Below, one piece after another: positions 3,398 through 20,308 of a DNA stretch of 20,308 nucleotides (its first letter is position 1; each line of letters begins with the position of its first letter). The notes beneath the pieces are model-generated. The model made no database searches, was not told where the DNA came from, and worked only from the letters and a program-made list of their open reading frames with translations. This DNA comes from a virus: the IMG/VR virus record IMGVR_UViG_3300042449_000097, positions 1-20,308 of that record; one strand, written 5' to 3'. A program made the translations under genes and the position numbers.

Positions 3398-4726
3398 TTA
3401 CTTACCGGGGTATTTGTCTAAGAGTTTAGTTGCGCGAGCCACGGGGTCATCTTCGGAAGACGTTCCTGCTGCTGTTTCTCGCGCGGACGTACCCTCATCG
3501 GCCATTGCAGGGCTAACAAACTGTCCTTTTCGTTCGGTCATTAAACGCACAATTTCGCGCGCTGCCGCTTTACGAATTGCGTTTGGAAGATTTCCATTCG
3601 CAAGCTGGCCCGCAGCTTCCTTATATGATTGCGTATCTTTATCAGATTGCGGGCCTTCAAATCGCGGTACCATTTTCAGCACCAAATCCGCGATAGGTTG
3701 CAATTTTGAAATAGCTATTGCGCCTGGCGTGGCTTGCCCGATAACACCCGCTGCCGTATCGGCAAGCTGCCCTAACCCGCTACCCGTAGATTGGTCGATA
3801 AGACCGCCATCTTCTGCGGCGGTGCTAAGCTCAATAATGGCGCGGTCAAGGTCTAAAGCTAGTTGCTTACGTTGCGCGGCGGTTTTCTCAAACGTCGCGC
3901 TGGGTTTGCCTTTAGGCGGCGGCGCTCCCGCAGCGGTCTTAGGTATGACTTCTTCGCCGCTTGCGGTAAACATCCTGACGTTGCCGGCGTTGTCGGTGAT
4001 AACTTGCGCGACTTTGCCCGTGTCGCCTTTACCAAACATCTGGCGATATAGGGCTTGCGTGTCTGGGTCTTGCGACTTTAGCCACTCTATCATGCGGGCA
4101 TCCGCTGGCAATTGGCTTGCGTCGGTGGGCGCGCGCGTCGAGTCTAGATTGACTTTTTGTTGCATCAATCGCGTGTATTCCGGCGAACCTGGCACATACC
4201 CTGCCGCACGGACCGTACGCTCATAATCGGTGGGTTTGTATTGGTCCAAAAAGGTTTTGGCGTCCATCACGTTTTGGGCGACCAACTTCTGGTCAAACAC
4301 GGAAGGAAGGTTAGCCGTCGAACCTGGGCGAAGCGCCTCTAGCTCTGGCAACGCGGCTTCGTAAGATGTTTGGTCGCTAATACGCGACCAAATATCACGG
4401 CCAGCGGTGGCAATTTTGGTTTTGCGGTCTAGGTCAGCACTGTCGGCATCGATTAAGGCTTTACTCATGGCAAGACCTTTTGCGCCATACTGAGATGCGA
4501 TTTTAGGGTCGCGAAAATCAGCGCCAGTCCGAATAGCCTCTCTCATTGCCTCAACGTCAGCCATTTCACGTTGCGTTTCGGTTAACTTCAGCGCGTTCAG
4601 CTGCCCTTCTGATTGAAGACCTTGCATCTTCATCATCATGGCAAGCTGATTCATCTTCGTCGCCGGGTCGGGGCCGGCGAAGTTAATCGGCGCGACGCCT
4701 TGGGCAAGAACAGGATCTAACGGCAT
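3398..4726 (-). CDS. Ejection (internal virion) protein, P22 gp20-like position, 442 aa
   Basis: The protein starts MPLDPVLAQGVAPINFAGPD, then has a Met/Gln-rich helix at about 25-60 (MNQLAMMMKMQGLQSEGQLN). The middle is helical, and a conserved-looking C-terminal region at about 355-402 contains SYKEAAGQLANGNLPNAIRK and EIVRLMTERKGQF, which I recognise from phage internal virion proteins. It lies between the gp7-like and gp16-like genes and is close in length to P22 gp20 (about 471 residues), so the likely role is a DNA-ejection protein released from the capsid during infection. The ATG has a GGGGAT-type Shine-Dalgarno about 7 nt upstream and begins 11 nt after the previous stop. No catalytic motif is visible. 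Family placement rests on order, size and the C-terminal pattern. Confidence 0.7.
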   Translation of the reverse strand: MPLDPVLAQGVAPINFAGPDPATKMNQLAMMMKMQGLQSEGQLNALKLTETQREMADVEAMREAIRTGADFRDPKIASQYGAKGLAMSKALIDADSADLDRKTKIATAGRDIWSRISDQTSYEAALPELEALRPGSTANLPSVFDQKLVAQNVMDAKTFLDQYKPTDYERTVRAAGYVPGSPEYTRLMQQKVNLDSTRAPTDASQLPADARMIEWLKSQDPDTQALYRQMFGKGDTGKVAQVITDNAGNVRMFTASGEEVIPKTAAGAPPPKGKPSATFEKTAAQRKQLALDLDRAIIELSTAAEDGGLIDQSTGSGLGQLADTAAGVIGQATPGAIAISKLQPIADLVLKMVPRFEGPQSDKDTQSYKEAAGQLANGNLPNAIRKAAAREIVRLMTERKGQFVSPAMADEGTSARETAAGTSSEDDPVARATKLLDKYPGK

Positions 4727-9356: not shown

Positions 9357-10779
9357 TAGTTGCAGATACGGTCAATTCAGCGCCGATAATGGCTACTTTT
9401 ACTGGGTCGGTGCCGGACACTTCGTAAACCCTGTCTCGAATCTTTTCCGTCATCCCTAACCGGCGCCAAATGGCCCGCGTGCCATACGACCCAATTGCGC
9501 CCATTGATGTCCAATGTTCGTTTGACCAGGTGTGACCACCATCGTCAGACCAACGAAGCATGGCTTGAGGGTCACTGCCTTGCCCGGTGTTAAGGCCAAC
9601 GCCCGTTTCGCAGTCAAGCTGTAGCGAATGCTGCGCCGTTCGCTTTAGGTTGTTTTGCCCAGATGGCAGCGCTCGCCACGACCGAAGCCAACGCTGTACC
9701 GCGCCGTTGTCCGCATAAACATCGAGGTCAAACGCATAGATATTGCCGTTGGCGTAATCACCCACCACGATTTCGTTGTTGTAATTCATTTGGCAGTTGC
9801 TGATATGCCGCGTAAATTGGCCGTTGCTGAACGCGGCCCGTTCATGCCAAGCGCCGGTTGCAACGTCGTACACCCAAGTAGCGTTGCCGGTTGGAAAAAT
9901 CAGCACATAAAACGAATGCCCGTCTTGCTGGTAAGTGTAGCCAATGGCGTCGGAGATGGTAGCGTAGCCTTGAATGGCAAACTCTATGGCGTGTGTGCTA
10001 ATCCGTTGACCGGTGTAACCGTTCGCCCGGTAGACCATACCGTTGCCACGGGCGTCGGAGCCCAACCAGAATAGCCCATTGTCCATCTTGGCTACTGAAT
10101 ACGGAGCCGCGCAACCAAGCTCGTTAAATGCGCCCTGTATGCGCTCCAGCGGAAACGCTGCCGCGCCTGAGTCGTACCACACCTCAACGGTGTTGGTGCC
10201 AAACAGCCACGCCTCGCGGTGGTCAATCGCAATGGCAAGCAGACCGTCAGGGGAACCTTCGGCGCTAGCAAAATCCAACGGATCTACCGACGTTCCATCC
10301 AGCAACTGAGTGACCCAAATCCTTTGCGAATTGGGTTCGTTGAACACGAAGTACCCGTCCAAATACCCCACCGTTACCGCGCCGGGAAAGTCAGGGTCGG
10401 TAATTTGCGCGAACACGCCGGTGCTGGCGTTGTAGATAAACCCGGCGGGGTTACAGGCGACAAATAGTTGGGTTCCATTGTCGGACATGCTGACCGGGCC
10501 AGCGCCAGATACGGTGCCCAGTGCAGTTGCGGTCCACGCTGAGTCTATTTTGTATAATGTGTTGCCGGACACCGCATAGCCGTACGCCCCAAATTGCCAC
10601 AGCCCGCGCACAGGGCCAGTCCCTAACGTCGCTAACAGCCGCAGACCAGGCGCGCGGTTGAGAAAGCCAGCGTCTTTGCCGTTTTCTGGGGTGGCTTCTG
10701 GAAACAGATTGACCATGCGGTTGTCCGCAGCGTTGACGCTGCGAGCCACATACGCCTGCCCCAGAATTGGCATTTTCAT
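9349..10779 (-). CDS. Packaged-DNA stabilization / tail hub protein, P22 gp10-like, 476 aa
   Basis: This matches the P22 gp10 family (Phage_stabilise), the hub ring below gp4 that seals the portal and binds spikes and needle. Length agrees with P22 gp10 (about 472 residues). Family features include the N-terminal MPILGQAYVARSVNAADNRM then VNLFPE, RAPGLRLLATLGTGPVRGLW, and a repeated beta-strand pattern (YGYAVSGNTLYKID, QLFVACNPAGFIYN, LDGYFVFNEPNSQRIWVTQL, NTVEVWYDSG) like propeller blades. I start at the ATG 10777-10779, which overlaps the TGA of the gp4-like gene (TGATG); a TTG one codon earlier is open but less likely. A second in-frame ATG (10771-10773, MPILGQ) is possible. No strong Shine-Dalgarno is visible, so translation probably re-initiates after the upstream gene. 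Confidence 0.9.
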   Translation of the reverse strand: MKMPILGQAYVARSVNAADNRMVNLFPEATPENGKDAGFLNRAPGLRLLATLGTGPVRGLWQFGAYGYAVSGNTLYKIDSAWTATALGTVSGAGPVSMSDNGTQLFVACNPAGFIYNASTGVFAQITDPDFPGAVTVGYLDGYFVFNEPNSQRIWVTQLLDGTSVDPLDFASAEGSPDGLLAIAIDHREAWLFGTNTVEVWYDSGAAAFPLERIQGAFNELGCAAPYSVAKMDNGLFWLGSDARGNGMVYRANGYTGQRISTHAIEFAIQGYATISDAIGYTYQQDGHSFYVLIFPTGNATWVYDVATGAWHERAAFSNGQFTRHISNCQMNYNNEIVVGDYANGNIYAFDLDVYADNGAVQRWLRSWRALPSGQNNLKRTAQHSLQLDCETGVGLNTGQGSDPQAMLRWSDDGGHTWSNEHWTSMGAIGSYGTRAIWRRLGMTEKIRDRVYEVSGTDPVKVAIIGAELTVSATNG

Positions 10780-11525
10780 CAATAGTTGCCGGCAAAGACG
10801 TTAAACCGCTGGCGGGTGCCAACGATGCTGTACGGCAAGCTCATGATGTCATCTGGGTTGTTGATGCGCTTCAGATTACGCTTGCTGGTCATGGCGATGC
10901 GCGACACGGTAGGCGACGGTTCGACGCCAAATTCCGGCGCCAATTCGCACGCCAGATTGTATTTGAACGCCCGCAAATAACCTGGCGGCAACACCAACAC
11001 GGTTGATAGTGACGCGGCTTGATGCAGTTCAGCCACTGAAACAAAATGCCATTCCAGCACCCGTGTGGGCACGGGGTAGATGTACATTTCAATGTCGGGG
11101 TATGTCATGTTAACCCAGATGACTTGCGGGTAAGTGCTGGTCACAGTCTTAACGGCGATGCCGTTATACTGTTGCTGGTTGAGGATTTTGATGCCGAACG
11201 AAATGCCCGTAGAAGCGTCCTTAAAGTACGTCGAATCATCAAGCAGGATAGGGCGGTTGCCCACAAAGTCGCCAGACGGGCCCAACGTGCGGCTGATAGT
11301 GTTCGGGGGCCAGCTAAACACTTGGTCTTGCGTTGAGAACACGCTAAGGCGCTCGGTGTTCCACGAATCAATCATTTGATTCATGGCGGTCAACGCATCT
11401 TGTGCGGTAGCCGCAGACGGCACTTCGCCTTCAGCTAATTGTCCAATCAACCGCAGCGCGGCGTTGATTTGGTCGCCCGCTGTCGTTGACGTTGTAAACG
11501 AAGTTGATGGGACAATAATCGTCAT
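10779..11525 (-). CDS. Head-tail adaptor / tail accessory factor, P22 gp4-like, 248 aa
   Basis: This matches the P22 gp4 tail accessory factor family, which forms the ring that binds the portal and carries gp10. The first third is helical and typical: AGDQINAALRLIGQLAEGEV, then AATAQDALTAMNQMIDSWNT and an SVFSTQDQVFSWP segment. The middle is beta-rich (YPQVIWVNMTYPDIEMYIYP, VLEWHFVS). The C-terminal part is helical, with YLRAFKYNLACELAPEFGV and a basic SKRNLKRINN. It is longer than P22 gp4 (about 166 residues), as in many distant relatives. P22 gp4 has muramidase activity; I cannot assign catalytic residues here. The ATG is preceded by GGAG about 9 nt upstream and starts one base after the membrane-protein stop. 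It is followed at once by the gp10-like gene, as in P22. Confidence 0.85.
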   Translation of the reverse strand: MTIIVPSTSFTTSTTAGDQINAALRLIGQLAEGEVPSAATAQDALTAMNQMIDSWNTERLSVFSTQDQVFSWPPNTISRTLGPSGDFVGNRPILLDDSTYFKDASTGISFGIKILNQQQYNGIAVKTVTSTYPQVIWVNMTYPDIEMYIYPVPTRVLEWHFVSVAELHQAASLSTVLVLPPGYLRAFKYNLACELAPEFGVEPSPTVSRIAMTSKRNLKRINNPDDIMSLPYSIVGTRQRFNVFAGNY

Positions 11526-11526
11526 T

Positions 11527-11826
11527 TCACATTACTCCGGCCATTAGAAGCACAGCCGCTATGGGCAATGATAAATTCCAGAACCAAGAATGAACATCCC
11601 ACACCCGCCGGTCAGCCCAACCCCACCAAGGCAGGTTGGCGCGGCGGCCTTGGCCGTATCGTTCAATCCACTTGTACTCGGCCTGCGCGTGTTCACGGCC
11701 CATCAAAACGCCCGACATCAACGCCGCGCCAATCCACCAGTTGCCGGTGGCAAAGCCGACTGCGGTTTGCACCGCAATGGCAATTAGCGCGTGCTCTAAA
11801 CAGTTCAATGGCGAATTTTCAATCAT
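11527..11826 (-). CDS. Small phage membrane protein, three hydrophobic segments, 99 aa
   Basis: I set the start at the ATG 11824-11826, five bases after the tailspike stop; the frame stays open upstream, but that extension would lie inside the tailspike gene. The 99 residues contain two adjoining hydrophobic helices at about 12-43 (ALIAIAVQTAVGFATG, NWWIGAALMSGVLMG), the motif GREHAQAEYKW at 43-53, a Trp-rich loop (NLPWWGWADRRVW) and a C-terminal hydrophobic segment (LSLPIAAVLLMAGVM). I recognise the HALIA...GREHAQAE pattern from phage membrane proteins of unknown function. It sits between tailspike and gp4-like genes, away from the lysis block. It could be a lysis accessory, a superinfection-exclusion protein or something else; the sequence does not settle this. 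There is no clear Shine-Dalgarno. Confidence 0.75.
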   Translation of the reverse strand: MIENSPLNCLEHALIAIAVQTAVGFATGNWWIGAALMSGVLMGREHAQAEYKWIERYGQGRRANLPWWGWADRRVWDVHSWFWNLSLPIAAVLLMAGVM

Positions 11827-11831
11827 GGCGG

Positions 11832-13799
11832 CTACGCGAGGTTCACGAACGCAGCCAAAACCCCAGTGCCGGGGGAATTGGTATTGCAACTCAGGAACGT
11901 GACCGCATACGAGTAAGTCCCCCCGAGTCGATTTTCAATGTAGAGCCTGTTGGTTGCAGTGTCTGCGCTAACCGTTAATTTGCCGTCGGTGCCTGTCGTC
12001 CCAGTTAGCTGGCCCGTTGTGACGTTCAAATTTGATGTGACGGACATCGAGGTTAACGAACCGGACGTTCCGACCCTAAACGTCAATAATCCGCTTTGAC
12101 CAGCAGCGGCGTTCCCGCCAATAAGCACCAGCCCTTTAGTGACGTCGTCCCATTGAAAATACCCGGCTTTGTCATCCAACAAGGTAATGACGTCTGGCTG
12201 CGCCATCCCGTTCTGTGTCCCACCAGCCGCGATTTGCATCGACTGAGCCGTAATATTTGCGCCGTTGAACCGTTCTTCCCATTGCGTGTTTACGGTTCTG
12301 TTTGTTAAAGCGGCAATGCCTGCCGCAGAGGTTGCGTCCGGCTGGTTGCAATCCACCAAAACGCCGCGCACGGCAGAGGCAATGTTTACCACAGGATTGA
12401 AATATCCAGCGCCGCCGGAACTGTTTACGACGTATAAGCCGGTTATTTCAACGCCGCGAGAGTAAGTCGCTACACCAGCCGCAGGAGCCACAACATATGC
12501 AGCCGGAGTTGTGCACTGAATCATCCGATGGTTGATCAGCTTGATATTTACGCCGCGAATCACCGCGCTTGAGTTTGCTGGCGCATTACTCGGAAACTCC
12601 GCTCGGCCATCGAACGCGCAGGAAATCAGCGTATGCGTCAACCCGCTGAGATAGAGGTTGGCAATTGCAGGCGTGGACACACAGTTCGCCGCGATAATCG
12701 TGTTGTAAAACGCTTCAAATTGGATGGCGACCACGCGATAACAAGCATCAGTCCCATCCACTTCGGCTGTGCCGCCACCTACGCGCAGCCCATGACCGCC
12801 CGTCCAACATGATGTGCAATTCAGCAGCGTGACCATGCCGGGCTGTGAACGGTTGGTAAACGATAGATACGAGCCTCCGGCCACCATAAACCCGGAGCCT
12901 TTGACGCAATTTACCTCGCAGTTTTCGGCCACGGAATTAACAAACTCATTACAAAAAAGGATGCCGTCCCCGTTCTGGTTCATGACGCGCAAGTTGAGCA
13001 AGTAAGCCTTGCGTGCCGTTTGATAACCAACCGCGTCGTCGGGACAAACCATTACGCCCGCGTCGTTCACCGCAAAACTTGCTGCGTAGGCTGTCGCTGA
13101 CCGCGAAATGGTCATGTCAGACACTGTGCAGCCTTGCGCTTTGATGCGAATCACCGCGCCGCCGTTGAAATCGCCAATGATCTGCGTTGCGCTGACGTTG
13201 CTGCCAGTACCAACTACGCCCGCGCTGCCTGTCGCACTGCGTGCGTTTCCGCCACCACCAGCGCCTATGAAAGACATCCCTACCGCATCCATCACCAGCG
13301 ATGATGTCACTCGGTAGCTGCCTGCGGGGAAAAATAATTCTTTTGACGTATTTTTGACGGCGGTGATAGCAGCTTGAATCGCCGCCGTGTCATCCGTCAC
13401 CCCATTCCCAACCGCGCCAAAGTCTTTAACGCTTACGCTTTCGCGCAGCTTGGTTTGGACGGTAGTAGAAACTGCGCCTGTTCCGGCTGGCAGATAGCCC
13501 ACGCTGTTGCTGCCCGATGGTGCCATAAGGTCATCAAGTTCAATGGCGTTGATGGTGACAGTAAGATAGCCAATCTTGGACACTACAAGGTCATACGTTC
13601 CGTTAGCGGCGTAGAACGCTACCTGGCCGGTCGAAGACGATAGGAACGGGTTAGCCAACGGCGTAATGCCATTGTCGCTATACAGCGTGGCTGCTGTAGA
13701 AGTGCCGGCGACATAGACCGTGCAGGTGGCGTTAGAAAGAACCATTAGCGTCGAACTGGTGGAAGTCGTGGACGCTATAAAGTTGACATATCTCTGCAC
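11832..13799 (-). CDS. Tailspike with pectate-lyase-fold beta-helix, 655 aa
   Basis: Probable receptor-recognising and possibly polysaccharide-degrading tailspike. Residues 1-90 form a virion-binding domain (MQRYVNFIASTTSTS, AGTSTAATLYSDNGITPLAN, STGQVAFYAANGTYDLVVS). Residues 121-145 are the hallmark entry to a pectate-lyase superfamily beta-helix (SVSVKDFGAVGNGVTDDTAA then IQAAI), followed by LFFPAGSYRVTSSLVM and helix-like rungs (GGAVIRIKAQGCTVSDMTIS, VNSVAENCEVNCVKGSGFMV). About 560-655 is a beta C-terminal domain. Length is close to P22 tailspike (666 residues), but the gene lies between coat and gp4 instead of at the end of the late region. Catalytic acids cannot be assigned by eye. The start is GTG (13797-13799), with AGGAG about 8 nt upstream overlapping the previous stop codon. 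Confidence 0.85.
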   Translation of the reverse strand: MQRYVNFIASTTSTSSTLMVLSNATCTVYVAGTSTAATLYSDNGITPLANPFLSSSTGQVAFYAANGTYDLVVSKIGYLTVTINAIELDDLMAPSGSNSVGYLPAGTGAVSTTVQTKLRESVSVKDFGAVGNGVTDDTAAIQAAITAVKNTSKELFFPAGSYRVTSSLVMDAVGMSFIGAGGGGNARSATGSAGVVGTGSNVSATQIIGDFNGGAVIRIKAQGCTVSDMTISRSATAYAASFAVNDAGVMVCPDDAVGYQTARKAYLLNLRVMNQNGDGILFCNEFVNSVAENCEVNCVKGSGFMVAGGSYLSFTNRSQPGMVTLLNCTSCWTGGHGLRVGGGTAEVDGTDACYRVVAIQFEAFYNTIIAANCVSTPAIANLYLSGLTHTLISCAFDGRAEFPSNAPANSSAVIRGVNIKLINHRMIQCTTPAAYVVAPAAGVATYSRGVEITGLYVVNSSGGAGYFNPVVNIASAVRGVLVDCNQPDATSAAGIAALTNRTVNTQWEERFNGANITAQSMQIAAGGTQNGMAQPDVITLLDDKAGYFQWDDVTKGLVLIGGNAAAGQSGLLTFRVGTSGSLTSMSVTSNLNVTTGQLTGTTGTDGKLTVSADTATNRLYIENRLGGTYSYAVTFLSCNTNSPGTGVLAAFVNLA

Positions 13800-13810
13800 G
13801 GCGGAAACTC

Positions 13811-13975
13811 CTATGCGGCAGGTCGGCGGCGGCGTTTAGCCTCTAATTCATTGACCGGAGCTTCCGGTTCACCGGGAGTATATCGCACCCATCCATTACG
13901 TTCATCCGCATCCGCTTCCGCATCCGCGATAGCGACTTTGGTGCCGTGTTTGGGGTGTCTGAGGTAGATGTGCAT
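13811..13975 (-). CDS. Conserved small phage protein MHIYLRHP, 54 aa
   Basis: A 54-residue protein starting MHIYLRHPKHGTKVAI, with a central RNGWVRYTPGEPEAPVNELE and a basic end AKRRRRPAA. I recognise the HGTKVAI...GWVRYTP pattern as a small conserved protein next to phage head genes; its function is unknown to me. The C-terminal KRRRR tract suggests contact with nucleic acid or an acidic partner, as inference. The ATG (13973-13975) immediately follows the U-tract of a strong terminator hairpin and has no Shine-Dalgarno. Its stop TAG forms part of the AGGAG that serves the tailspike gene. A longer open frame (13843-14112) overlaps it in another frame but runs through the terminator hairpin and looks like noise. 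Residues 18-26 are encoded around a hexanucleotide repeat. Confidence 0.8.
   Translation of the reverse strand: MHIYLRHPKHGTKVAIADAEADADERNGWVRYTPGEPEAPVNELEAKRRRRPAA
13904..13927. repeat. Four-copy hexanucleotide repeat in the 54-aa gene
   Basis: Four tandem 6-base units, read on the coding strand as gcggat, gcggaa, gcggat, gcggat, encode alternating Ala-Asp/Glu (ADAEADAD). In-frame gain or loss of units would change the length of this acidic stretch without shifting frame. Confidence 0.8.
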
Positions 13976-14005
13976 AAAGAAAACGGGGCGGTTGCCCGCC
14001 CCGTT
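13976..14005 (-). terminator. Intrinsic terminator after the head gene block
   Basis: On the minus strand a perfect 10-bp GC-rich stem (AACGGGGCGG pairing with CCGCCCCGTT) with a 4-nt loop GCAA is followed directly by TTTTCTTT. This is a textbook rho-independent terminator. It lies 12 nt after the stop of the 129-residue gene and ends right at the ATG of the 54-residue gene, dividing the head genes from the tail genes. Confidence 0.9.
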
Positions 14006-14017
14006 CCTATTCGCTTT

Positions 14018-14407
14018 TTAGGCGATTCGGTACAAAGTCCAAGCGCCGTCGCCGGTCTTGCGCGCGCGGAACGCAGCCGACGTAACAGTCGCAGCGGTTG
14101 CCGTGCCCACAATCGTCCAACCCGTGCCGGTCGCCACGGTGGCGGTAGAGCCAGCCGTGTTGATCAGATTCAAGTTGAACCCGCTGTCCACTTTTACGTT
14201 GGGCAGCGCAGCCTCAAGCAAAGCCACCGTTGGCAGAGTCTGCGTGCCAGGCGTGCCGCTAGCGACAATCAAACCAGTCAGCAGTTGAGCCGCCGTCAGA
14301 GTGCCCGCCGCCGAAACCGTAGCCGGGGCGCTCTGAATCGCCAAGGTGATTTCGTTAACATTGCCGTCAGTAGTCTGATAGCCGTTGCCGGTAGAAGGAA
14401 ATGCCAT
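14018..14407 (-). CDS. Small beta-rich head protein, possible decoration protein, 129 aa
   Basis: A 129-residue protein rich in Thr, Ala and Gly. A helix-like opening (MAFPSTGNGYQTTDGNVNEI) is followed by LTAAQLLTGLIVASGTPGTQ, a TLPTVALLEAALPN segment and a beta C-terminus with GSTATVATGTGWTIVGTATA and ARKTGDGAWTLYRIA. I recognise this C-terminal pattern from phage structural proteins, but I know no proven function. It comes directly after coat, with a very good ribosome site (AAGGAG, 8 nt from ATG), so it is probably made in quantity. A capsid decoration or cement protein would fit; a fibre-like accessory is the alternative. A strong terminator follows its stop codon. Confidence 0.65.
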   Translation of the reverse strand: MAFPSTGNGYQTTDGNVNEITLAIQSAPATVSAAGTLTAAQLLTGLIVASGTPGTQTLPTVALLEAALPNVKVDSGFNLNLINTAGSTATVATGTGWTIVGTATAATVTSAAFRARKTGDGAWTLYRIA

Positions 14408-14419
14408 GATATTTTCTCC

Positions 14420-15634
14420 TTAACCCCAGATGCGGCAGGCCATCGGCGGGCGGATGGTTGAGAAACCATACAACACGTCGATACGGCAAGGCATACGGTC
14501 GTTGTTGATGTCGTACTGACGGACAACACGCAGGCTGATGCCGTTGTGAACCTGGCGGCTAGCCATGTCCACGCCCTGCGGAAGCAGGAGGTCAGCAGTC
14601 GCCAGCGTAATGGCGTCTTTGTGGTAAACCAGATTCTGCGGATACTGGGTCGAAGCAGAACCAACAAAGGTCACGACAGCGTTGTCAGCCGGGAACGAAT
14701 CCACGGTAGCCAAAGCGTTCGCGCTGGTAAAGATAGGCGGCGAAATCGCCACGTTGGTCCACGCGCCGCTGGACGCAGTGGCGGTCGCGGTGCAGACGAA
14801 CTGCTGGAGCGAACCGGTGGACTGACGGGTCTGCGGGTTGACGGCAAAAACGCCGGCAATCGTGAATACGTCACCAACAGCAATCGTAGCCGAAGCCGTG
14901 CCGCCATCAAGGCTGATGGTGGTCGCGCCCTGCGTGCTGACCGCGCCGTTCACCAGAATGGTGTCGGAGGTCGAACGGCTACCGGTGGTGTGCTGGACGA
15001 TGGACTGCGACATGTTGATTTCGTCGAGGCCCAGAACGCCTTGGCCCATCATGCCGTTCTTGAACTGACGGCTAACAGTATCAACCGGGTTAAAGAGGCC
15101 CTTCATGCCTTCGACCAGACCAGCGTTGGCCGCCGGGTTAACGGTGGCGTAACGCGGCGCCATACCAGCGGCGGATTCGTTCAGCTTCTGCTGCGCCTGC
15201 AACAGGACGAGCGAAGTAGCCGGAACGGTGCCGGGGGTGCCAACCGACTGGAAGATGCTCTTGTACGCATTTGCAACGTCAGCATCAACCGAGGCAGCCA
15301 GCTGGCTAACGCGGGGTTTCAGCACACGTTCCGCGAAGTCATCCAACTGCATGGTAAGTTCGGCAGAAGTGAAGTTCACGCCGATGTGCTTCTGCGAAGC
15401 AACAGTCAGGGTGGTGAACTGTTCGTTGTCGTCCTGCACCTGGAGGGCAGCGCCATCGGTGACGAGCGCGCGGTCAGGCAGACGGATGCGGAGGGTCGAG
15501 CCAATTTTGGCGCCCTCGACGGCAAAGGAATCGTCGTATTGACGGTTCACGTTGCGGGAAATCACCAGGTTGTTCTCAAGAATTTCGAGAGCTTTCCGAG
15601 TGATCATATCAATCGTAAGGATTGAGTTAGCCAT
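14420..15634 (-). CDS. Major capsid (coat) protein, P22 gp5-like, 404 aa
   Basis: This matches the P22 coat protein family (HK97 fold). Characteristic parts are the N-terminal MANSILTIDMITRKALEILE then NNLVISRNVNRQYDDSFA, GSTLRIRLPDR at 46-55, an E-loop/spine region (KHIGVNFTSAELTMQLDDFA), RYATVNPAANAGLVEGMKGL at 161-180, an inserted beta region at about 225-330 in the place of the P22 I-domain (ISLDGGTASATIAVGDVFTI), and the C-terminal NGISLRVVRQYDINNDRMPC then RIDVLYGFSTIRPPMACRI. P22 gp5 is 430 residues. It follows scaffold by 12 nt, as in P22, with an AGGAG about 7 nt before the ATG. High expression is expected. Confidence 0.93.
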   Translation of the reverse strand: MANSILTIDMITRKALEILENNLVISRNVNRQYDDSFAVEGAKIGSTLRIRLPDRALVTDGAALQVQDDNEQFTTLTVASQKHIGVNFTSAELTMQLDDFAERVLKPRVSQLAASVDADVANAYKSIFQSVGTPGTVPATSLVLLQAQQKLNESAAGMAPRYATVNPAANAGLVEGMKGLFNPVDTVSRQFKNGMMGQGVLGLDEINMSQSIVQHTTGSRSTSDTILVNGAVSTQGATTISLDGGTASATIAVGDVFTIAGVFAVNPQTRQSTGSLQQFVCTATATASSGAWTNVAISPPIFTSANALATVDSFPADNAVVTFVGSASTQYPQNLVYHKDAITLATADLLLPQGVDMASRQVHNGISLRVVRQYDINNDRMPCRIDVLYGFSTIRPPMACRIWG

Positions 15635-15646
15635 GATATCTCCTAG

Positions 15647-16408
15647 TTAGCGAAGTCTTTGCGCTTCTAGCTTCTTCATCTGGCGTTGCCGCTCTGCTTC
15701 AATCCACTGCGATGCGGTCATACTTTTGATAGACCGAGGGTCAGTGGTATCAAAGCTCGGTGCCGAAGCACTTCGCGGTTTACCGGGTTGAATAGGCTCT
15801 GGCGCGTTAGTTACCCGTTTTGTTACCGGTTCAGAAACCAATTTGGCTTCCAAACGGCCAATTTCTTTAGCTTGCAAATACGGCGATAACCGGGAAATAC
15901 GGTCAGCTTCTTTCGGATTAGACCCAAGGTAATACGCCAGGTCAGGTCCAATGTCCGAAGAATGAATCGTCTCAGCCATCACGTTCGTAATCGGAAGATT
16001 CGGGTTGTACGCGACCTGTTCAAAGTCATCGTACTTGCCCCGCGCTTCTTCCTCGCGGTCGTGATAAGCCTCAAGAACCTCAGTCTGCTGCTGCTGAGCC
16101 GTCCGCTGCTGAATCAGTTGCTCCGCTTTACGCGAAGCCAACGCTTCGGCATACGCCTCTACGCTTTCAAACTGGTCGGCTGGCGGCAGCTCTACCGGTT
16201 GTGCCGGCGCTTTTGGCTGCTGAGTTCTCTCCCACTTACGCTGCTCTCTTGCAAGCCGTTTGCTGACAATCGCATCAAGCTCTTCTTGTGTGAAGGTCTT
16301 GGGCTCTGCCTGCTCTTCAACTTCCGGCGCTGAAACATCGGGCTCAGGTGCTGCCGTCGCTACCTGTTCCGGCGCGGGTACTTCCGCTAACAGTTCTTCA
16401 CCACTCAT
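15647..16408 (-). CDS. Scaffolding protein, P22 gp8-like, 253 aa
   Basis: A highly charged, helical protein directly before coat, as P22 gp8 is. It has an acidic, Pro/Ala-rich N-terminus (about 1-35), then FTQEELDAIVSKRLAREQRK, Gln-rich helices (KAEQLIQQRTAQQQQTEVLE), and a basic C-terminal helix (RQRQMKKLEAQRLR). In P22 a short basic C-terminal helix-turn-helix binds coat, so this end is the likely coat-contact site. Scaffold directs procapsid assembly and leaves before maturation. I chose ATG 16406-16408, with AAGGAG 6 nt upstream; a GTG one codon earlier would sit too close to that site. The 79-nt region upstream carries two inverted repeats. Low direct sequence recognition, but order and composition are convincing. 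Confidence 0.85.
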   Translation of the reverse strand: MSGEELLAEVPAPEQVATAAPEPDVSAPEVEEQAEPKTFTQEELDAIVSKRLAREQRKWERTQQPKAPAQPVELPPADQFESVEAYAEALASRKAEQLIQQRTAQQQQTEVLEAYHDREEEARGKYDDFEQVAYNPNLPITNVMAETIHSSDIGPDLAYYLGSNPKEADRISRLSPYLQAKEIGRLEAKLVSEPVTKRVTNAPEPIQPGKPRSASAPSFDTTDPRSIKSMTASQWIEAERQRQMKKLEAQRLR

Positions 16409-16428
16409 CACTGGCTCCTTAAAAGCCC

Positions 16429-16445
16429 CCGGTAAACCTTACCGG
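16429..16445 (-). promoter_or_regulatory. Perfect hairpin in the scaffold mRNA leader
   Basis: A perfect 7-bp inverted repeat with a 3-nt loop, CCGGTAA GGT TTACCGG on the minus strand, ends about nine bases before the AAGGAG ribosome site of scaffold. There is no U-run directly after it, so it is a poor terminator. It is well placed to affect translation initiation. The repeat is directly visible; its role is inferred. Confidence 0.5.
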
Positions 16446-16458
16446 TACGGTTTGTGCG

Positions 16459-16487
16459 TTTTTACCCTATATGGGTAAAACTAGCAA
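16459..16487 (-). promoter_or_regulatory. Possible promoter overlapped by an 8-bp inverted repeat
   Basis: On the minus strand, TTGCTA (16487-16482) and TAAAAA (16464-16459) are 17 nt apart, each matching the sigma70 consensus at four of six bases. A perfect inverted repeat, TTTTACCC then 5 nt then GGGTAAAA (16480-16460), fills most of the spacer and the -10. This looks like an operator over a weak promoter, but could be an RNA hairpin instead. The repeat is certain; the promoter is a weak call. Confidence 0.35.
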
Positions 16488-16490
16488 TAA

Positions 16491-16757
16491 CTATTCAAAA
16501 GAAACAGTTGCGGCAACAGTTCCGCTAATGACGATATACAACCCGTTATTAAACTGAAGGCCGTCTGCCGGGAAAAAATAATTGGTTGCCGACACGGGCG
16601 TAAACACACCAATTAGCGTTTTGGTCGTTGTTGCTGCGGCAGAATCGTAAATCGTAATGGTCGGCGTGGAAGACGCTGAACTAACGAAAATGCCTTTAAG
16701 TTTACCGAAGCTAGGCTTTAGATTGGCCGTGGCGGTAATGTAAGAAGCTAAAGCCAT
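16491..16757 (-). CDS. Small beta-rich phage protein, 88 aa
   Basis: I start at ATG 16755-16757, with GAGG about 6 nt upstream, although the frame is open further into the preceding gene. The protein (MALASYITATANLKPSFGKL, GIFVSSASSTPTITIYDSAA, FFPADGLQFNNGLYIVISGT, AATVSFE) is low in charge and looks like a single beta-sandwich. I recognise the pattern 'STPTITIYDSAA ... GLYIVISGT' from small phage proteins near head genes, without a known function. It lies between the DUF5856-like gene and scaffold, within the head assembly block, so a minor virion protein is plausible. It is followed by the 79-nt regulatory-looking gap. Confidence 0.7.
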   Translation of the reverse strand: MALASYITATANLKPSFGKLKGIFVSSASSTPTITIYDSAAATTTKTLIGVFTPVSATNYFFPADGLQFNNGLYIVISGTVAATVSFE

Positions 16758-16764
16758 ATAAACC

Positions 16765-17127
16765 TCACGAAAGGAATTTAAGTTTGTACAGCGTGGACAG
16801 GTATAACTCCACAATACCATCAATCAGGTTCTGCAACGGCGTGTCGGTCTTAGAACACACGGTGTACCTGGCGGCTTCAATCTCTTCTACCTGATTTTGC
16901 AGGAACTCCACCACGTTGCTGGTTTTCTTTGCCGATTGCAGCGAGATAGGCCCAATCAAACCATGCCGGCCCTGATACGCTTCAGCGAACCCGTCCGCCA
17001 AGCCCACAATGCCTTCGTAGAACTCTTGCAGCGCCTTGTGCTTGGCATAGCTGCGAGTGTTCAAATGCACGCTGTGCGTCACGTCCCGCGCCAGAAAGAA
17101 CAGCCCTACGAACTCGGCGCACTTCAT
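16765..17127 (-). CDS. DUF5856-like helical protein with Dps/ferritin-like signature, 120 aa
   Basis: An all-helical protein resembling the viral DUF5856 family. The central HLNTRSYAKHKALQEFYEGI then VGLADGFAEAYQGRHG (21-56) resembles the Dps/ferritin metal-site pattern: His21-x-Asn, His30, and D45-G-F-A-E49, which has the same DxxAE spacing as the Dps 'DTMAE' segment. The C-terminal PLQNLIDGIVELYLSTLYKL would be a further helix. By eye it could be a small four-helix bundle, but metal binding is only an inference. Dps proteins store iron and protect DNA; whether this one does is unknown. The ATG overlaps the portal stop by 4 nt, and AGGAG lies about 9 nt upstream within portal. It is not part of the P22 head block. 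Family call moderate, function uncertain. Confidence 0.7.
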   Translation of the reverse strand: MKCAEFVGLFFLARDVTHSVHLNTRSYAKHKALQEFYEGIVGLADGFAEAYQGRHGLIGPISLQSAKKTSNVVEFLQNQVEEIEAARYTVCSKTDTPLQNLIDGIVELYLSTLYKLKFLS

Positions 17128-19307
17128 TGCATCGGCTCCTGCTGCATCATCTCAGGAGGCATCTCAGGTGGCATCGGGGGCTGTTCGCCCATCATTTCTT
17201 GCGCTGGCATCTCGGGCATCCCAGAGTTTTGCGGCATTAGGTCGCCGGACTCCATCATACCGTGGATAGTGCCTAGCACCACATCCTGTACTTGGTCTGG
17301 CGTCATGCCCGCCATCGTGGCGCTAATCCGCTTCGTTTCGGCTTCATAACGCTTGATGCTAAGCTCTTGCGCTTCCATCGACTGCGCGACGCTCTGGAGC
17401 ATGGCGTGCATCTGCTCCATTTCCTGCCCCATCGCCTGCATCTGCTGCTCGGCCTGCTGTAGCGCCGGTGACTTGTCGTCGTCAGCCAACAATTTCGGGT
17501 CGATGGTCTTTTCAAACCGTTTCGCCATTTCCTGCGCGCCTGGCCAGTCCATGTTCTTGATGAACAGGTCGCCGGCCACTGCCCACAGCTGCGGGTTGCC
17601 TTGCAGAATCTGCGACATGGCGTCCATCGCTTCCTGCCGCTTGGTCATGTAGCTCGGACCAGTCGTCACGCAGACGTCGTACTTGCCAACCCCAGGGTTG
17701 TAGATTTTCTCGATGGTGTTGCCCATCTGGTCCACTATTTTGCGGACAGGCTCGGGCTGCATCGGGTCAATCCGCGCCGAATTAGCTTCGCCATCAATCC
17801 CGATAATCCGCGCAATTCGTTGCGTATCGTAGATTTTCGGTATCAAGTCTACTATTTGCCGGGTGCAGTAGCGAATAGCTCGGGCCAAGTTATCAACGTA
17901 GTGGTAGGTGCCCGTATCGCCCTGCTTTTCGCGAGCCAAAATCGCTTTGCCAGACCGCTCGTTGCTGGTGGCACCGAGGCTTGAATCATACTGCCCAGTG
18001 GTCGATTTGATGTCGTCGGAGGCACCGGCTTTGGCCTGTAGCAGGCCGCTGGACGCCATCGGGGGCTGCGCGCGCGCTGGCAACGGCAGAACAGAGCCCT
18101 GACCGTCGGTTACGTCGGGGTTGACCTCCAAATACGGCCAGTTGGTCGTGTTGGCGGTCTTCCACTGGCTCTCATAGCCCTCAAACTGCCCGCCGTAGCC
18201 AATAAATGGCGCTTTTGGCGCCAATGCAAGCATTTCGGCCTCTTGACTGACCCAGTAGTTGTACATGCGCTGGGCATCTTTGGCGTTTCGGACGATGCCG
18301 GACACAAAAACACGCCCATCAACCTCAAATTCGTTGCCAATTACGCGGATAACCGGTATCCACTTGCCCGCCCATTCGCGTTCATCAAGGATTTCGTACC
18401 CGTTGATGCGGCACCACTTGATTTTGCGGCGGTCCACAAGGCGCGTTTTAATGGGTTTAATGCCCATCATTTTCATTTGCTTTGCGTCGGGCGAATCAGC
18501 AAACACCGTGATGTTGTTTGAATACAAATGTAGGGTTGCTTTTTCGTATTCGGCGTAGAAATACTCCGCAATACGGACCACATCTTCGTTAATCCATTGC
18601 GACAAGGACTGGTCGCCAACGCCTTGCTGTTCTAGGCTCGACAGCGGCTGCGCGTCAGGAAATTGACGTTCATATTCGTCGCGCAACAAGTCTTCGGTGA
18701 TGAAACACCATTCCGCATCCGCCCCGCAGGGGTCTTGGATGGTCGGGTCCATGTATACCGAAAACGAATTACGAATGCGCCCAATTTTAATGTCTTGGTC
18801 AAACGTATCGTCGTCGCAATACTCGGTCAAAAGGCGGATGTAGCCCTCGCCATACGTCACCTGGTTTTCGCACGCGGTGTCGTAAGCCACGTCGGCGTCG
18901 CTGATGTACTCAATATGACGGACAATGCCGTCAAATATCTCCGCGACTTCTACGTCCGCCTTGTCGTCGGCGGGAATGACCTTCCCCGAGGGCCGGTTCT
19001 GCCGTTGGTCGTTGGTGACCTGCTTTACATGCTGCGGCAGCTTGTTAATAGTCAGACAAGGGCGCGCATTGATGGTCTGCCCTTGAACCGACCCTCGGGT
19101 CGCCAGTACGTCTGCCGGCCATTGCCAGTGATTGTCTGGCGAACCGGCGGCAAAACGCAGGTCGTCTAGCTCATCTTCGCGTGACTCGGAGTACGCCGCT
19201 ACCGCCATCGTCATGCGATGACGAGCCGTCGCTAATACATTGGCGCTGTCCTTATCGGACCGCGAGCCCCCATTAGCTACCGCTTCTACGGCGTTGTAGT
19301 CAGCCAT
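17124..19307 (-). CDS. Portal protein, P22 gp1-like, 727 aa
   Basis: This is the dodecameric DNA-entry portal at one capsid vertex. Length (727) is almost that of P22 gp1 (725). Recognisable stretches are the N-terminal SREDELDDLRFAAGSPDNHW, ARPCLTINKLPQHVKQVTND with QRQNRP, NQVTYGEGYIRLLTEY, FSVYMDPTIQDPCGADAEWC, and STTGQYDSSLGATSNERSGK AILAREKQGD from the wing/stem region. About 600-670 is a long coiled coil (LQQAEQQMQAMGQEMEQMHA), which would correspond to the P22 portal barrel. The last 40 residues are a Met/Pro/Glu/Gln-rich tail (EMPAQEMMGEQPPMPPEMPP). The ATG follows the 49-residue gene by one base, with only a weak A-rich Shine-Dalgarno. It overlaps the next gene by 4 nt. Confidence 0.95.
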   Translation of the reverse strand: MADYNAVEAVANGGSRSDKDSANVLATARHRMTMAVAAYSESREDELDDLRFAAGSPDNHWQWPADVLATRGSVQGQTINARPCLTINKLPQHVKQVTNDQRQNRPSGKVIPADDKADVEVAEIFDGIVRHIEYISDADVAYDTACENQVTYGEGYIRLLTEYCDDDTFDQDIKIGRIRNSFSVYMDPTIQDPCGADAEWCFITEDLLRDEYERQFPDAQPLSSLEQQGVGDQSLSQWINEDVVRIAEYFYAEYEKATLHLYSNNITVFADSPDAKQMKMMGIKPIKTRLVDRRKIKWCRINGYEILDEREWAGKWIPVIRVIGNEFEVDGRVFVSGIVRNAKDAQRMYNYWVSQEAEMLALAPKAPFIGYGGQFEGYESQWKTANTTNWPYLEVNPDVTDGQGSVLPLPARAQPPMASSGLLQAKAGASDDIKSTTGQYDSSLGATSNERSGKAILAREKQGDTGTYHYVDNLARAIRYCTRQIVDLIPKIYDTQRIARIIGIDGEANSARIDPMQPEPVRKIVDQMGNTIEKIYNPGVGKYDVCVTTGPSYMTKRQEAMDAMSQILQGNPQLWAVAGDLFIKNMDWPGAQEMAKRFEKTIDPKLLADDDKSPALQQAEQQMQAMGQEMEQMHAMLQSVAQSMEAQELSIKRYEAETKRISATMAGMTPDQVQDVVLGTIHGMMESGDLMPQNSGMPEMPAQEMMGEQPPMPPEMPPEMMQQEPMQ

Positions 19308-19308
19308 A

Positions 19309-19458
19309 TTATTTCTTTTTTGCGGTCTTAGCCGACTGCTTGAACGCCTTGGCGGTGGGCGCCCCTTCAGTTCCAGGCTTACGCATCTTTTCGCCGCTGC
19401 CGGCTTTGATGCGGTCGCGTTTGGCGTTGATGTTCGCGTAGAGTCCAGCTTTGCTCAT
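19309..19458 (-). CDS. Very basic small protein MSKAGLYANI, 49 aa
   Basis: A 49-residue protein, MSKAGLYANINAKRDRIKAG followed by SGEKMRKPGTEGAPTAKAFK and a QSAKTAKKK end. It has about 14 Lys/Arg against 3 acidic residues. I recognise it as a recurring small protein next to phage portal genes; the function is not known to me. Its ATG overlaps the stop of the DUF6321-like gene by 4 nt and its TAA lies one base before the portal ATG, so it is translated within the portal operon. The strong positive charge and position between terminase and portal suggest contact with DNA or an acidic packaging partner, as inference. The short length makes it easy to miss, but both ends are fixed by neighbours. 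Confidence 0.8.
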   Translation of the reverse strand: MSKAGLYANINAKRDRIKAGSGEKMRKPGTEGAPTAKAFKQSAKTAKKK

Positions 19459-19712
19459 GGGCATTTCCACCTTTTAAGCGACGCCTTGGCGCGTTCGCCA
19501 TCTTTGGCCTTGGCCGCTACCGCACCCATCCGCGCGCAGAAGGACGCTTTGCGCCCTTTGTCCGCATTGGTCTTAGGGCTCGGCGCTGGCGCCTTTAGGT
19601 TGCTGCCGGTTTCGCGGTTGTACTTCTCCCGCCCTTTGGCCGTCAGTCCGGCACCTTTGCTAGCCGGCAGCTTTTCGCCTCGGCCTACACTAAGTGATAC
19701 TGACTTACCCAT
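19455..19712 (-). CDS. DUF6321-like basic protein, 85 aa
   Basis: An 85-residue protein resembling the DUF6321 family: MGKSVSLSVGRGEKLPASKG then AGLTAKGREKYNRETGSNLK, a middle KAPAPSPKTNADKG, and a conserved-looking GRKASFCARM ... LKRWKC end with two cysteines. It carries about 21 Lys/Arg against 6 acidic residues. Members occur in phage and prophage packaging regions; no activity is established that I know of. Here it lies three genes upstream of scaffold, between terminase and portal, and precedes another basic protein with a 4-nt overlap. A role in DNA binding or packaging is an inference from charge and context. There is no clear Shine-Dalgarno; translation may be coupled to the preceding gene, whose TAA ends one base before this ATG. 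Confidence 0.8.
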   Translation of the reverse strand: MGKSVSLSVGRGEKLPASKGAGLTAKGREKYNRETGSNLKAPAPSPKTNADKGRKASFCARMGAVAAKAKDGERAKASLKRWKCP

Positions 19713-19713
19713 G

Positions 19714-20130
19714 TTAAGCGCAGTGAATCAACGCAAAGTTAATAACAATTGCTTCCGACAGCGACCCACCCGAAATGTTTCGCAGCGTGATGCTTACCGA
19801 ACCCGCAGCCAGCGAGTTGGCAAACACGTTGTACGAACCGGGCGTTGCTTGACCACCAGCGATAGTCAAAATCACGGTGTCGTTGGCGCTGATAAGATTG
19901 TTGTTCAGCGTGAACGTGGCGTTGGTGGCAGTTGCCAGCGATGCGTTGTTCATTGTAATTACACCGGCGGACTTGTTCAAAGTCACGGCAGTGGACTTGC
20001 TGGTCGCCTGCGTCACGGCGCCCTGCGCGTTGGCGGTGTAGCCCAGCTCGCGGTCGGTCAGGATGCGGTCGGAACCAACGATTTCCTGATCTAGATACGC
20101 AACGCCAATCGATATCGTATTGCTGCTCAT
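19714..20130 (-). CDS. Small beta-rich phage structural-type protein, 138 aa
   Basis: A Thr/Ser/Asn/Ala-rich beta protein of 138 residues. The N-terminal MSSNTISIGVAYLDQEIVGS is followed by a module I recognise from many phage proteins: GAVTQATSKSTAVTLNKSAG then VITMNNASL, FTLNNNLISANDTVILTIAG, and SVSITLRNISGGSLSEAIVI NFALI at the end. It begins 3 nt after the terminase stop, with GGAG about 9 nt upstream inside terL. A minor head or decoration protein is plausible; position between terminase and portal is unusual for an abundant virion protein. No proven function is known to me for this module. It has little charge, in contrast to the two basic proteins that follow it. Confidence 0.7.
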   Translation of the reverse strand: MSSNTISIGVAYLDQEIVGSDRILTDRELGYTANAQGAVTQATSKSTAVTLNKSAGVITMNNASLATATNATFTLNNNLISANDTVILTIAGGQATPGSYNVFANSLAAGSVSITLRNISGGSLSEAIVINFALIHCA

Positions 20131-20133
20131 TTC

Positions 20134-20308
20134 CTACGCTCCCATCCAACTTGTGATGACGCCGCCATTGCTTTGCGTGGCGTAGCGTCGGGGTTTTTCA
20201 ACATACTCCCGGTGCGCTACCGGAAAGGCAAACGTCACCGCCAACGCATCCGCAGCGTCTGGCGATGCCAGGCCCCGCGCCTTCATGTCCTTTTTCGACT
20301 CCAGCTGG
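20134..20308 (-). CDS. Terminase large subunit, C-terminal end only
   Basis: The right edge holds the last 57 codons of a terminase large subunit, the ATPase/nuclease motor that packages DNA into the procapsid. The readable segment includes MKARGLASPDAADALAVTFA then FPVAHREYVEKPRRY and ends GGVITSWMGA. The SPDxADALAxTFA motif is the typical end of the RNase H-like nuclease domain; the Asp of SPD is a conserved acidic residue near the nuclease site. The ATPase domain, the start codon and terS are beyond position 20308. Its TAG stop is 3 nt before the next gene. Identification is good despite the short fragment, because the motif and its position before portal agree. Confidence 0.88.
   Translation of the reverse strand, partial: QLESKKDMKARGLASPDAADALAVTFAFPVAHREYVEKPRRYATQSNGGVITSWMGA

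Follow-up and report, generated by a model that had tools for sequence, protein, structure and literature searches.

A conserved pseudoknot and hairpin before the scaffolding protein gene of P22-type phages, a candidate translational operator

To our knowledge, the mechanism by which tailed phages match the supply of scaffolding protein to capsid assembly has been an open question since the P22 work of the 1970s and 80s. The P22 scaffold represses its own synthesis post-transcriptionally, and Wyckoff and Casjens reportedly described autoregulation of its gene (gene 8) in 1985. Compact H-type pseudoknots near a Shine-Dalgarno (SD) sequence are familiar from the preQ1-I and SAM-II riboswitches. 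Self-regulation of the P22 scaffolding protein gene also figures as the title of a work cited in PMC5744158. In phage T4 the leader of gene 32 has as its operator an H-type pseudoknot that precedes the ribosome site (PMC3014915 and PMC535899), and the E. coli rpsO gene (S15) has a pseudoknot in its translational operator, under autogenous control (PMC3014915). The element described here, which lies before the scaffolding protein gene, is very likely a real, conserved and widespread structured RNA, as judged from sequence comparison; our literature search, whose coverage took in few subscription titles, returned no paper describing it.

The window, meaning the whole stretch of DNA analysed, comprises 20,308 nucleotides (positions 1-20,308 of IMG/VR record IMGVR_UViG_3300042449_000097). 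The element is on its minus strand, where the late genes are ordered portal, 120-aa protein, 88-aa protein, a 79-nt gap, scaffold and coat. The scaffolding protein gene (15647..16408, minus strand) matches PHROG 8865, head scaffolding protein (E 2.1e-32), and has a weak sequence match (E 0.012) to the 303-aa chain labelled 'Scaffolding protein' in 8i1v, which we take to be that of P22; the next gene downstream (14420..15634, minus strand) encodes a P22-type coat protein (PHROG 283 major head protein, E 6.1e-79). The 88-aa gene in the slot upstream of the element (16491..16757, minus strand) has no PHROG or Pfam match; the sequence of this slot differs in many of the best 80 of at least 596 relatives (L001-L080), the element and scaffold staying in place, so that the slot appears variable in gene content and ends sharply where the element begins. 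The 120-aa protein beside the portal (16765-17127, minus strand) matches PHROG 858 (starvation-inducible transcriptional regulator) and Pfam DUF5856. The initial annotation described the 79-nt gap as the only sizeable one, which holds provided that the small minus-strand ORFs at 13811-13975 and 19309-19470 (54 and 53 aa), which fill the late region's other two apparent gaps, are genes. The scaffold start is better assigned to the ATG at 16408-16406 than to the GTG 16411, because in L001, a close relative, that GTG is replaced by GAG.

The element runs on the minus strand from 16451 to 16413 and consists of an H-type pseudoknot followed by a hairpin, P3, that holds the SD, with the scaffold AUG at 16408. 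From 5' to 3' the order is S1 5' strand, loop L1, S2 5' strand, S1 3' strand, a short loop L3, S2 3' strand, a single G, P3 and AUG; S1 and S2 cross, hence the classification as an H-type pseudoknot. All the following coordinates are on the minus strand. The S1 5' strand is ACC (16449..16451; up to 4 nt in the register of the relatives) and pairs with the S1 3' strand GGU (16436-16438), which lies inside the S2 loop. L1 is GUA (16446..16448) in the window and UA in most relatives, UA being the commonest L1 in window-like (43/57), Vibrio-type (14/15) and L106-type (29/31) leaders alike. S2 pairs CCGGUAA (16439..16445) with UUACCGG (16429..16435), which in DNA form is the second of two inverted repeats in the initial annotation (CCGGTAA/TTACCGG, 16429-16435/16439-16445; 7 bp, 3-nt loop); that repeat is part of the conserved element, whose S1 pairing and P3 had been missed. 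A 7-bp S2 would leave L3 at zero, so the innermost S2 pair may open. P3, GGCUUUUAAGGAGCC (16413..16427), stands directly 3' of the pseudoknot with one G between, is contained in the minimum-energy fold of the window leader, and carries the SD, AAGGAG (16415..16420, assigned from sequence), in its loop and 3' arm. The pseudoknot ends roughly 20-30 nt before the AUG.

When IMG/VR was searched at the protein level with the window scaffold, at least 600 stretches matched, at least 596 of them were confirmed, and the best 80 loci were kept. Leaders of these best 80 of at least 596 loci have in common a block some 47 nt long that directly precedes the scaffold AUG, and many differ farther upstream. 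The 66 distinct leaders out of 81 were aligned with MAFFT on sequence only, the structure being specified by us. In these 66, paired cells amount to 88.4%, vs. 74.7% in shuffled alignments and 28-46% when the structure is slid, the covariation score is 0.415 vs. 0.176 in shuffles, and two-sided compensatory changes occur in 14 of 15 pairs, including 3 of the 4 pseudoknot (S1) pairs. Both strands of S2 covary, with two-sided changes in 6/6 register pairs, as do all five pairs of P3 (97.3% of cells paired in the 66 leaders), one of which shows 10 U-G in place of C-G. Four of the five measures were reached by none of 500 shuffles; the fifth, further pair types, showed no excess over shuffles in the 66 leaders (407/500), nor in any count. 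The MAFFT alignments A1-A3 contain some mis-gapped rows (L028-type and L013-type); A1 was counted unmended, A2 and A3 were left uncounted. RNAalifold, which draws no pseudoknots, recovered the S2 core and P3 unprompted. A chance origin of the element is ruled out by the covariation, and the structured leader that the initial annotation had suspected at the scaffold start is strongly supported by compensatory changes across relatives.

S1 was tested in 73 matches aligned by a covariance model that held S2 and P3 without S1; 65 of the 73 were among the model's 66 building sequences, and L070 was the only one of 74 sources left unmatched. In these leaders S1 is paired in 77.2% vs. 69.6% when shuffled (15-37% when slid), with 26 two-sided cells vs. 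8.1 and a covariation score of 0.274 vs. 0.161, each of these values being reached by 0 of 500 shuffles. Two-sided changes occur in three of the four register pairs, the outermost A-U pair having none; for S1 alone, neither two-sided pairs (3 vs. 3.6) nor pair types (6 vs. 7.1) are more numerous than in shuffles. In a fixed register S1 beats all 500 shuffles in the window-like (57 distinct), Vibrio-type (15) and L106-type (31) leaders, and 3 of 500 shuffles reach the value of the annotated phages. Sf6-type leaders fail this test (500/500 shuffles as good) because they use a different register. Counted in that register, their S1 is 100% paired, with two-sided changes in only 1/3 S1 and 1/6 S2 pairs, which does not exceed shuffles (312/500).

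Leaders of 24 annotated phages and of further IMG/VR sets were scanned for related folds. The pseudoknot scanner lacks specificity, reporting 27 of 740 shuffles and, from the same loci, 57 of 740 other 80-mers, and was used only to locate candidates. It fires on 58/74 distinct window-like, 14/20 Vibrio-type, 36/42 L106-type, 17/17 Sf6-type, 0/3 P22-type and 12/18 annotated-phage leaders; it reports something in 16 of the 24 annotated phages, with the match in L105, 78 nt away, probably due to chance, and those in L100, L116 and L119 equalled by 2-3 of 60 shuffles. L101 was missed by the scanner and found by the covariance model. The rows for L112 (leader anchored 7 nt off) and L122 (true start not found) are unreliable in the scanner, S1 and hairpin counts, and leaders whose upstream sequence was too short, or for which no start was located, were left out (2/28 Vibrio-type, 2/5 PAE2-type, 1/80 Sf6-type).

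Pseudoknots of like layout and other letters precede the scaffold in Vibrio, Shewanella, Thalassomonas, Pseudomonas, Sf6-type and other phages. S2 can be wholly different between lineages, as in CCAGUG/CACUGG, CCCAUG/CAUGGG and CUGACG/CGUCAG. Thalassomonas BA3 has AACCG UA CCAGUG CGGUU CACUGG; Vibrio 1.183, FGH and Shewanella X14 have GGC UA CCAGUG GCC UUU CACUGG; VvAW1 has AAGC UA CCCAUG GCUU CAUGGG (each with 0/60 shuffles as good); PAE2 has CCG ACU UCCGG CGG AA CCGGA (2/60). Further candidates occur in APSE-1, Sodalis phiSG1, Sf101 and Shewanella ZP9 (respectively 1, 6, 11 and 1 of 200 shuffles as good). The set centred on MW202520 holds many S1 and S2 variants, S1 not being kept in every leader, and S1 is absent from some L106-type leaders, e.g. 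L200; in Sf6-type leaders the element lies within the 3' end of the portal gene. Among 18 coat-bearing bacterial contigs (hosts according to the records, mostly MAGs; several of the others having too little upstream sequence), seven match the model at E <=0.1 (L082, L084, L085, L086, L091, L092 and L096), and contigs of Rhizorhabdus histidinilytica (L087) and of the Burkholderiales (L089) hold scanner candidates; in L087 a hairpin with an AGGA loop is seen by eye after the pseudoknot. The covariance model is tuned to window-like leaders: it matches 2 of 14 named phages at E 0.1, most divergent lineages lying outside its reach. The H6/1 scaffold, used as a scan query, yielded no relatives. In the Vibrio phage records L112 (1386), L123 (1495) and also L122 (1497) the annotation puts the scaffold start on an ATG at the pseudoknot's 5' edge; L112 and L123 have a likelier start 54 nt downstream of it, behind the SD. 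In Xanthomonas phage PBR31 (L103) and in PAE2 (L116) a G+C-rich hairpin with a U-run is seen by eye in the interval between the upstream gene and the scaffold; in PAE2 the pseudoknot follows this terminator-like hairpin, and in PBR31 none was found by the scanner.

The fold is kept while its letters change and so probably controls the amount of scaffold, and the crossing stems, the U-G exchanges and the SD inside P3 point to an RNA acting at translation initiation; control of scaffold translation is the likely role of the element. The scaffold itself is the most economical ligand, since the element tracks its gene through deep divergence and since the P22 scaffold is a known regulator of its own synthesis; we put the chance that the element is an autogenous operator at about even. 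In the reading that we prefer, and to which we would give an even chance in this full form, a cis-acting leader RNA sets scaffold translation as a translational operator, with free scaffold the most likely ligand. P3 would hide the ribosome site, and the pseudoknot beside it would be the recognition site, whose occupation would hold P3 shut or block the 30S subunit. The ligand would most likely be free scaffolding protein, such that scaffold not yet taken up in procapsids would lower its own synthesis. In favour of this reading, the element fills the space before the AUG, its length being about the median distance from the upstream stop codon to the AUG, 51 nt.

A possible reading, which we think the less probable side of the wager, does without any trans-acting ligand: the pseudoknot and the SD hairpin would fix a translation rate, offer the ribosome a standby site, or shield the mRNA ahead of the scaffold-coat segment after processing. 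Such a role would explain a structure kept with great freedom of sequence in S1, S2 and P3. The SD lies under the best hairpin in 55 of 57 distinct window-like leaders, 16/17 Vibrio-type, 19/26 L106-type and 9/16 annotated-phage leaders, and the other lineages have, at the place of P3, SD hairpins as different as CGUUUC/GGAACG, CGUAUA/UAUACG, UGAG/CUCA, UGGA/UCCA, CGUU/AACG and CGUA/UACG. Hairpins also appear in 549/1140 shuffles of window-like, 92/340 of Vibrio-type, 190/520 of L106-type and 115/320 of annotated-phage leaders; as a short hairpin is common by chance, the claim for P3 rests on covariation and not on presence. Among Sf6-type leaders a qualifying hairpin was found in 1/8 and one over the SD in 0/8, and a ligand-free device would also account for these leaders without P3 and for the occasional use of the element before other genes. 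A simpler hairpin could, however, fix a rate, and an H-type pseudoknot kept over such divergence suggests, by way of argument, recognition of its shape.

If a ligand is recognised, it could be something other than scaffold, such as the coat or portal protein, a host ribosomal protein or a small molecule, an alternative that we consider improbable. Pseudoknot operators for host proteins do exist (S15 and rpsO, in PMC3014915), but the element is closely tied to the scaffold gene. A DNA pattern written for the commonest variant of the pseudoknot, without regard to the gene downstream, was found at no fewer than 120 IMG/VR loci, 18 of whose contigs were already among the best 80 scaffold relatives, and a scaffold ORF follows 115 of the 119 usable places among the matches listed (those with more than 60 nt downstream; 75/79 and 40/40). 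As for the misses, L475 has a scaffold-like start and its stretch ends after 72 nt, L457:3506-3554 (minus strand) has a scaffold-like start and then diverges, and in L420 and L452 the pattern is followed by other small genes, which adjoin a homologue of window ORF 256-489. Exactly one match was found in 35 of 36 whole IMG/VR records, the window included, the records having been picked for holding the element; the L056 record has two, the second (3632-3673) being a pseudoknot without P3 before an 80-aa gene. These copies before other genes (L420, L452, L457 and the second copy in L056) are unneeded by a strictly scaffold-specific switch. Since the coat gene is always nearby too, gene linkage separates scaffold from coat only weakly. 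With both sides varying at 14 of the 15 paired positions, the stems show no evident letter-specific pocket, and a known RNA family was rejected: Rfam 15 gave no match above the gathering cut-off in the window, L010, L013, L030 or L069 (the best weak hit being Ref84, 19.9 bits vs. 52 needed), none at E 5 for L042 and L118, and two weak hits far below the cut-off for Sf6, so that no family, riboswitches included, matches beyond chance level.

Some of the stray copies have surroundings of their own. At L452:2036-2087 the pseudoknot, P3 and AUG are intact before a small protein, membrane-type by eye, which is followed by the ORF 256-489 homologue; at L420:7803-7845 (minus strand) the pseudoknot stands before that homologue, adjoining a homologue of window ORF 2-259, which is endolysin-like by eye. 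The second L056 pseudoknot (3632-3673) is about 280 nt upstream of the scaffold leader and looks like a duplication around an inserted gene.

The element might instead be a coupling device, in which the ribosome ending the upstream gene opens the pseudoknot and scaffold is translated in proportion, and this we regard as very unlikely. An ORF of at least 50 aa does end 160 nt or less before the AUG in 78 of 81 loci, at a median distance of 51 nt, and in several loci the stop codon abuts the element. Against coupling, the distance can be as short as 24 nt or as long as about 140 nt, many of the phages differ in their upstream sequence, and an upstream ORF so counted is not proof of a gene.

Both of the perfect inverted repeats reported for the gap are present, the upstream one, TTTTACCC-N5-GGGTAAAA, at 16460-16467/16473-16480 (minus strand; 8 bp, 5-nt loop). 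With one 8-bp and three 7-bp perfect repeats (loops 3-8 nt), two of the latter within the 8-bp repeat, the gap exceeds chance for its 79 nt (means of 0.013 and 0.087 in dinucleotide shuffles of the gap); the window as a whole is also rich in repeats relative to shuffles (8 bp, 7 vs. 2.15; 7 bp, 20 vs. 10.1). The upstream repeat is present in 4 of 80 relatives (L001-L004; best 80 of at least 596), all close to the window, with scaffolds 96-98% identical to the window's, and it is therefore not conserved. Compensatory changes, which the initial annotation would have sought in each stem, are found for the second repeat. A -35/-10 pair had been suggested to overlap the upstream repeat; a sigma-70 scan of 10000-20308, confined to that promoter type, gave five sites (6.3 in shuffles) and none in the gap. 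A search of the gap for a terminator-like site found none, P3 being followed by AGUGAUG, with no G+C-rich stem with a U-run. The upstream repeat was accordingly rejected as an operator, a role proposed for it at a separate scaffold/coat promoter, and as a terminator. We give hardly any credence to a DNA-level operator and promoter for a separate scaffold/coat transcript, for the upstream palindrome, improbable as a perfect 8-bp repeat is by chance in 79 nt, is confined to those four relatives and has no sigma-70-like site, while the conserved pairs cross and include the U-G exchanges in P3, as fits a single RNA strand.

Returning to the translational operator answering to free scaffold, a broader form of it can be put forward, tentatively and at somewhat short of even chances: a family of pseudoknot operators in P22-type phages of alpha-, beta- and gammaproteobacteria, in which free scaffold would sense head assembly and lower its own translation, and from which a few phages would have copied the switch to other genes, some of them in an apparent lysis region. 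The natural variants in Sf6, Thalassomonas BA3, Vibrio VvAW1, Shewanella X14 and Pseudomonas PAE2 make the question of scaffold supply directly testable, and the element would add to Rfam 15 a widespread RNA family that it lacks.

Of the described systems, P22 gene 8 resembles the present case in the role and position of the gene and in its autoregulation. The leaders of P22, Bas106 and Proteus V3, however, are without a conserved pseudoknot of the element's kind, which, with autoregulation reported for P22 itself, appears to speak against self-regulation through the element. P22 has another candidate of 4+4 bp, CGGC A GUGU A GCCG AG ACAC (1/100 shuffles as good), Bas106 only a different one of 3+4 bp (6/100) and Proteus V3 none, and we make no claim that P22 carries the element. 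The preQ1-I and SAM-II riboswitches are alike in having an H-type fold near the SD and differ in that the element has no Rfam match. The E. coli rpsO operator is a pseudoknot under autogenous control, as proposed here; the element differs from it in serving a phage capsid gene and, again, in matching no Rfam family. The T4 gene 32 operator and the element are both H-type pseudoknots 5' of the ribosome site in a phage leader; that of T4 sits 67 nt ahead of the start codon, with an unstructured A+U-rich stretch after it, whereas the element's ends some 20-30 nt before the AUG and is mostly followed, outside the Sf6 type, by the SD-holding hairpin. The T4 gene encodes a single-stranded DNA-binding protein, that of the element a capsid scaffold. 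By analogy, the two would seem to share the same logic in a different layout, and the element appears to represent a widespread RNA family, so far undescribed, whose kind, the pseudoknot translational operator, is already known from T4 gene 32.
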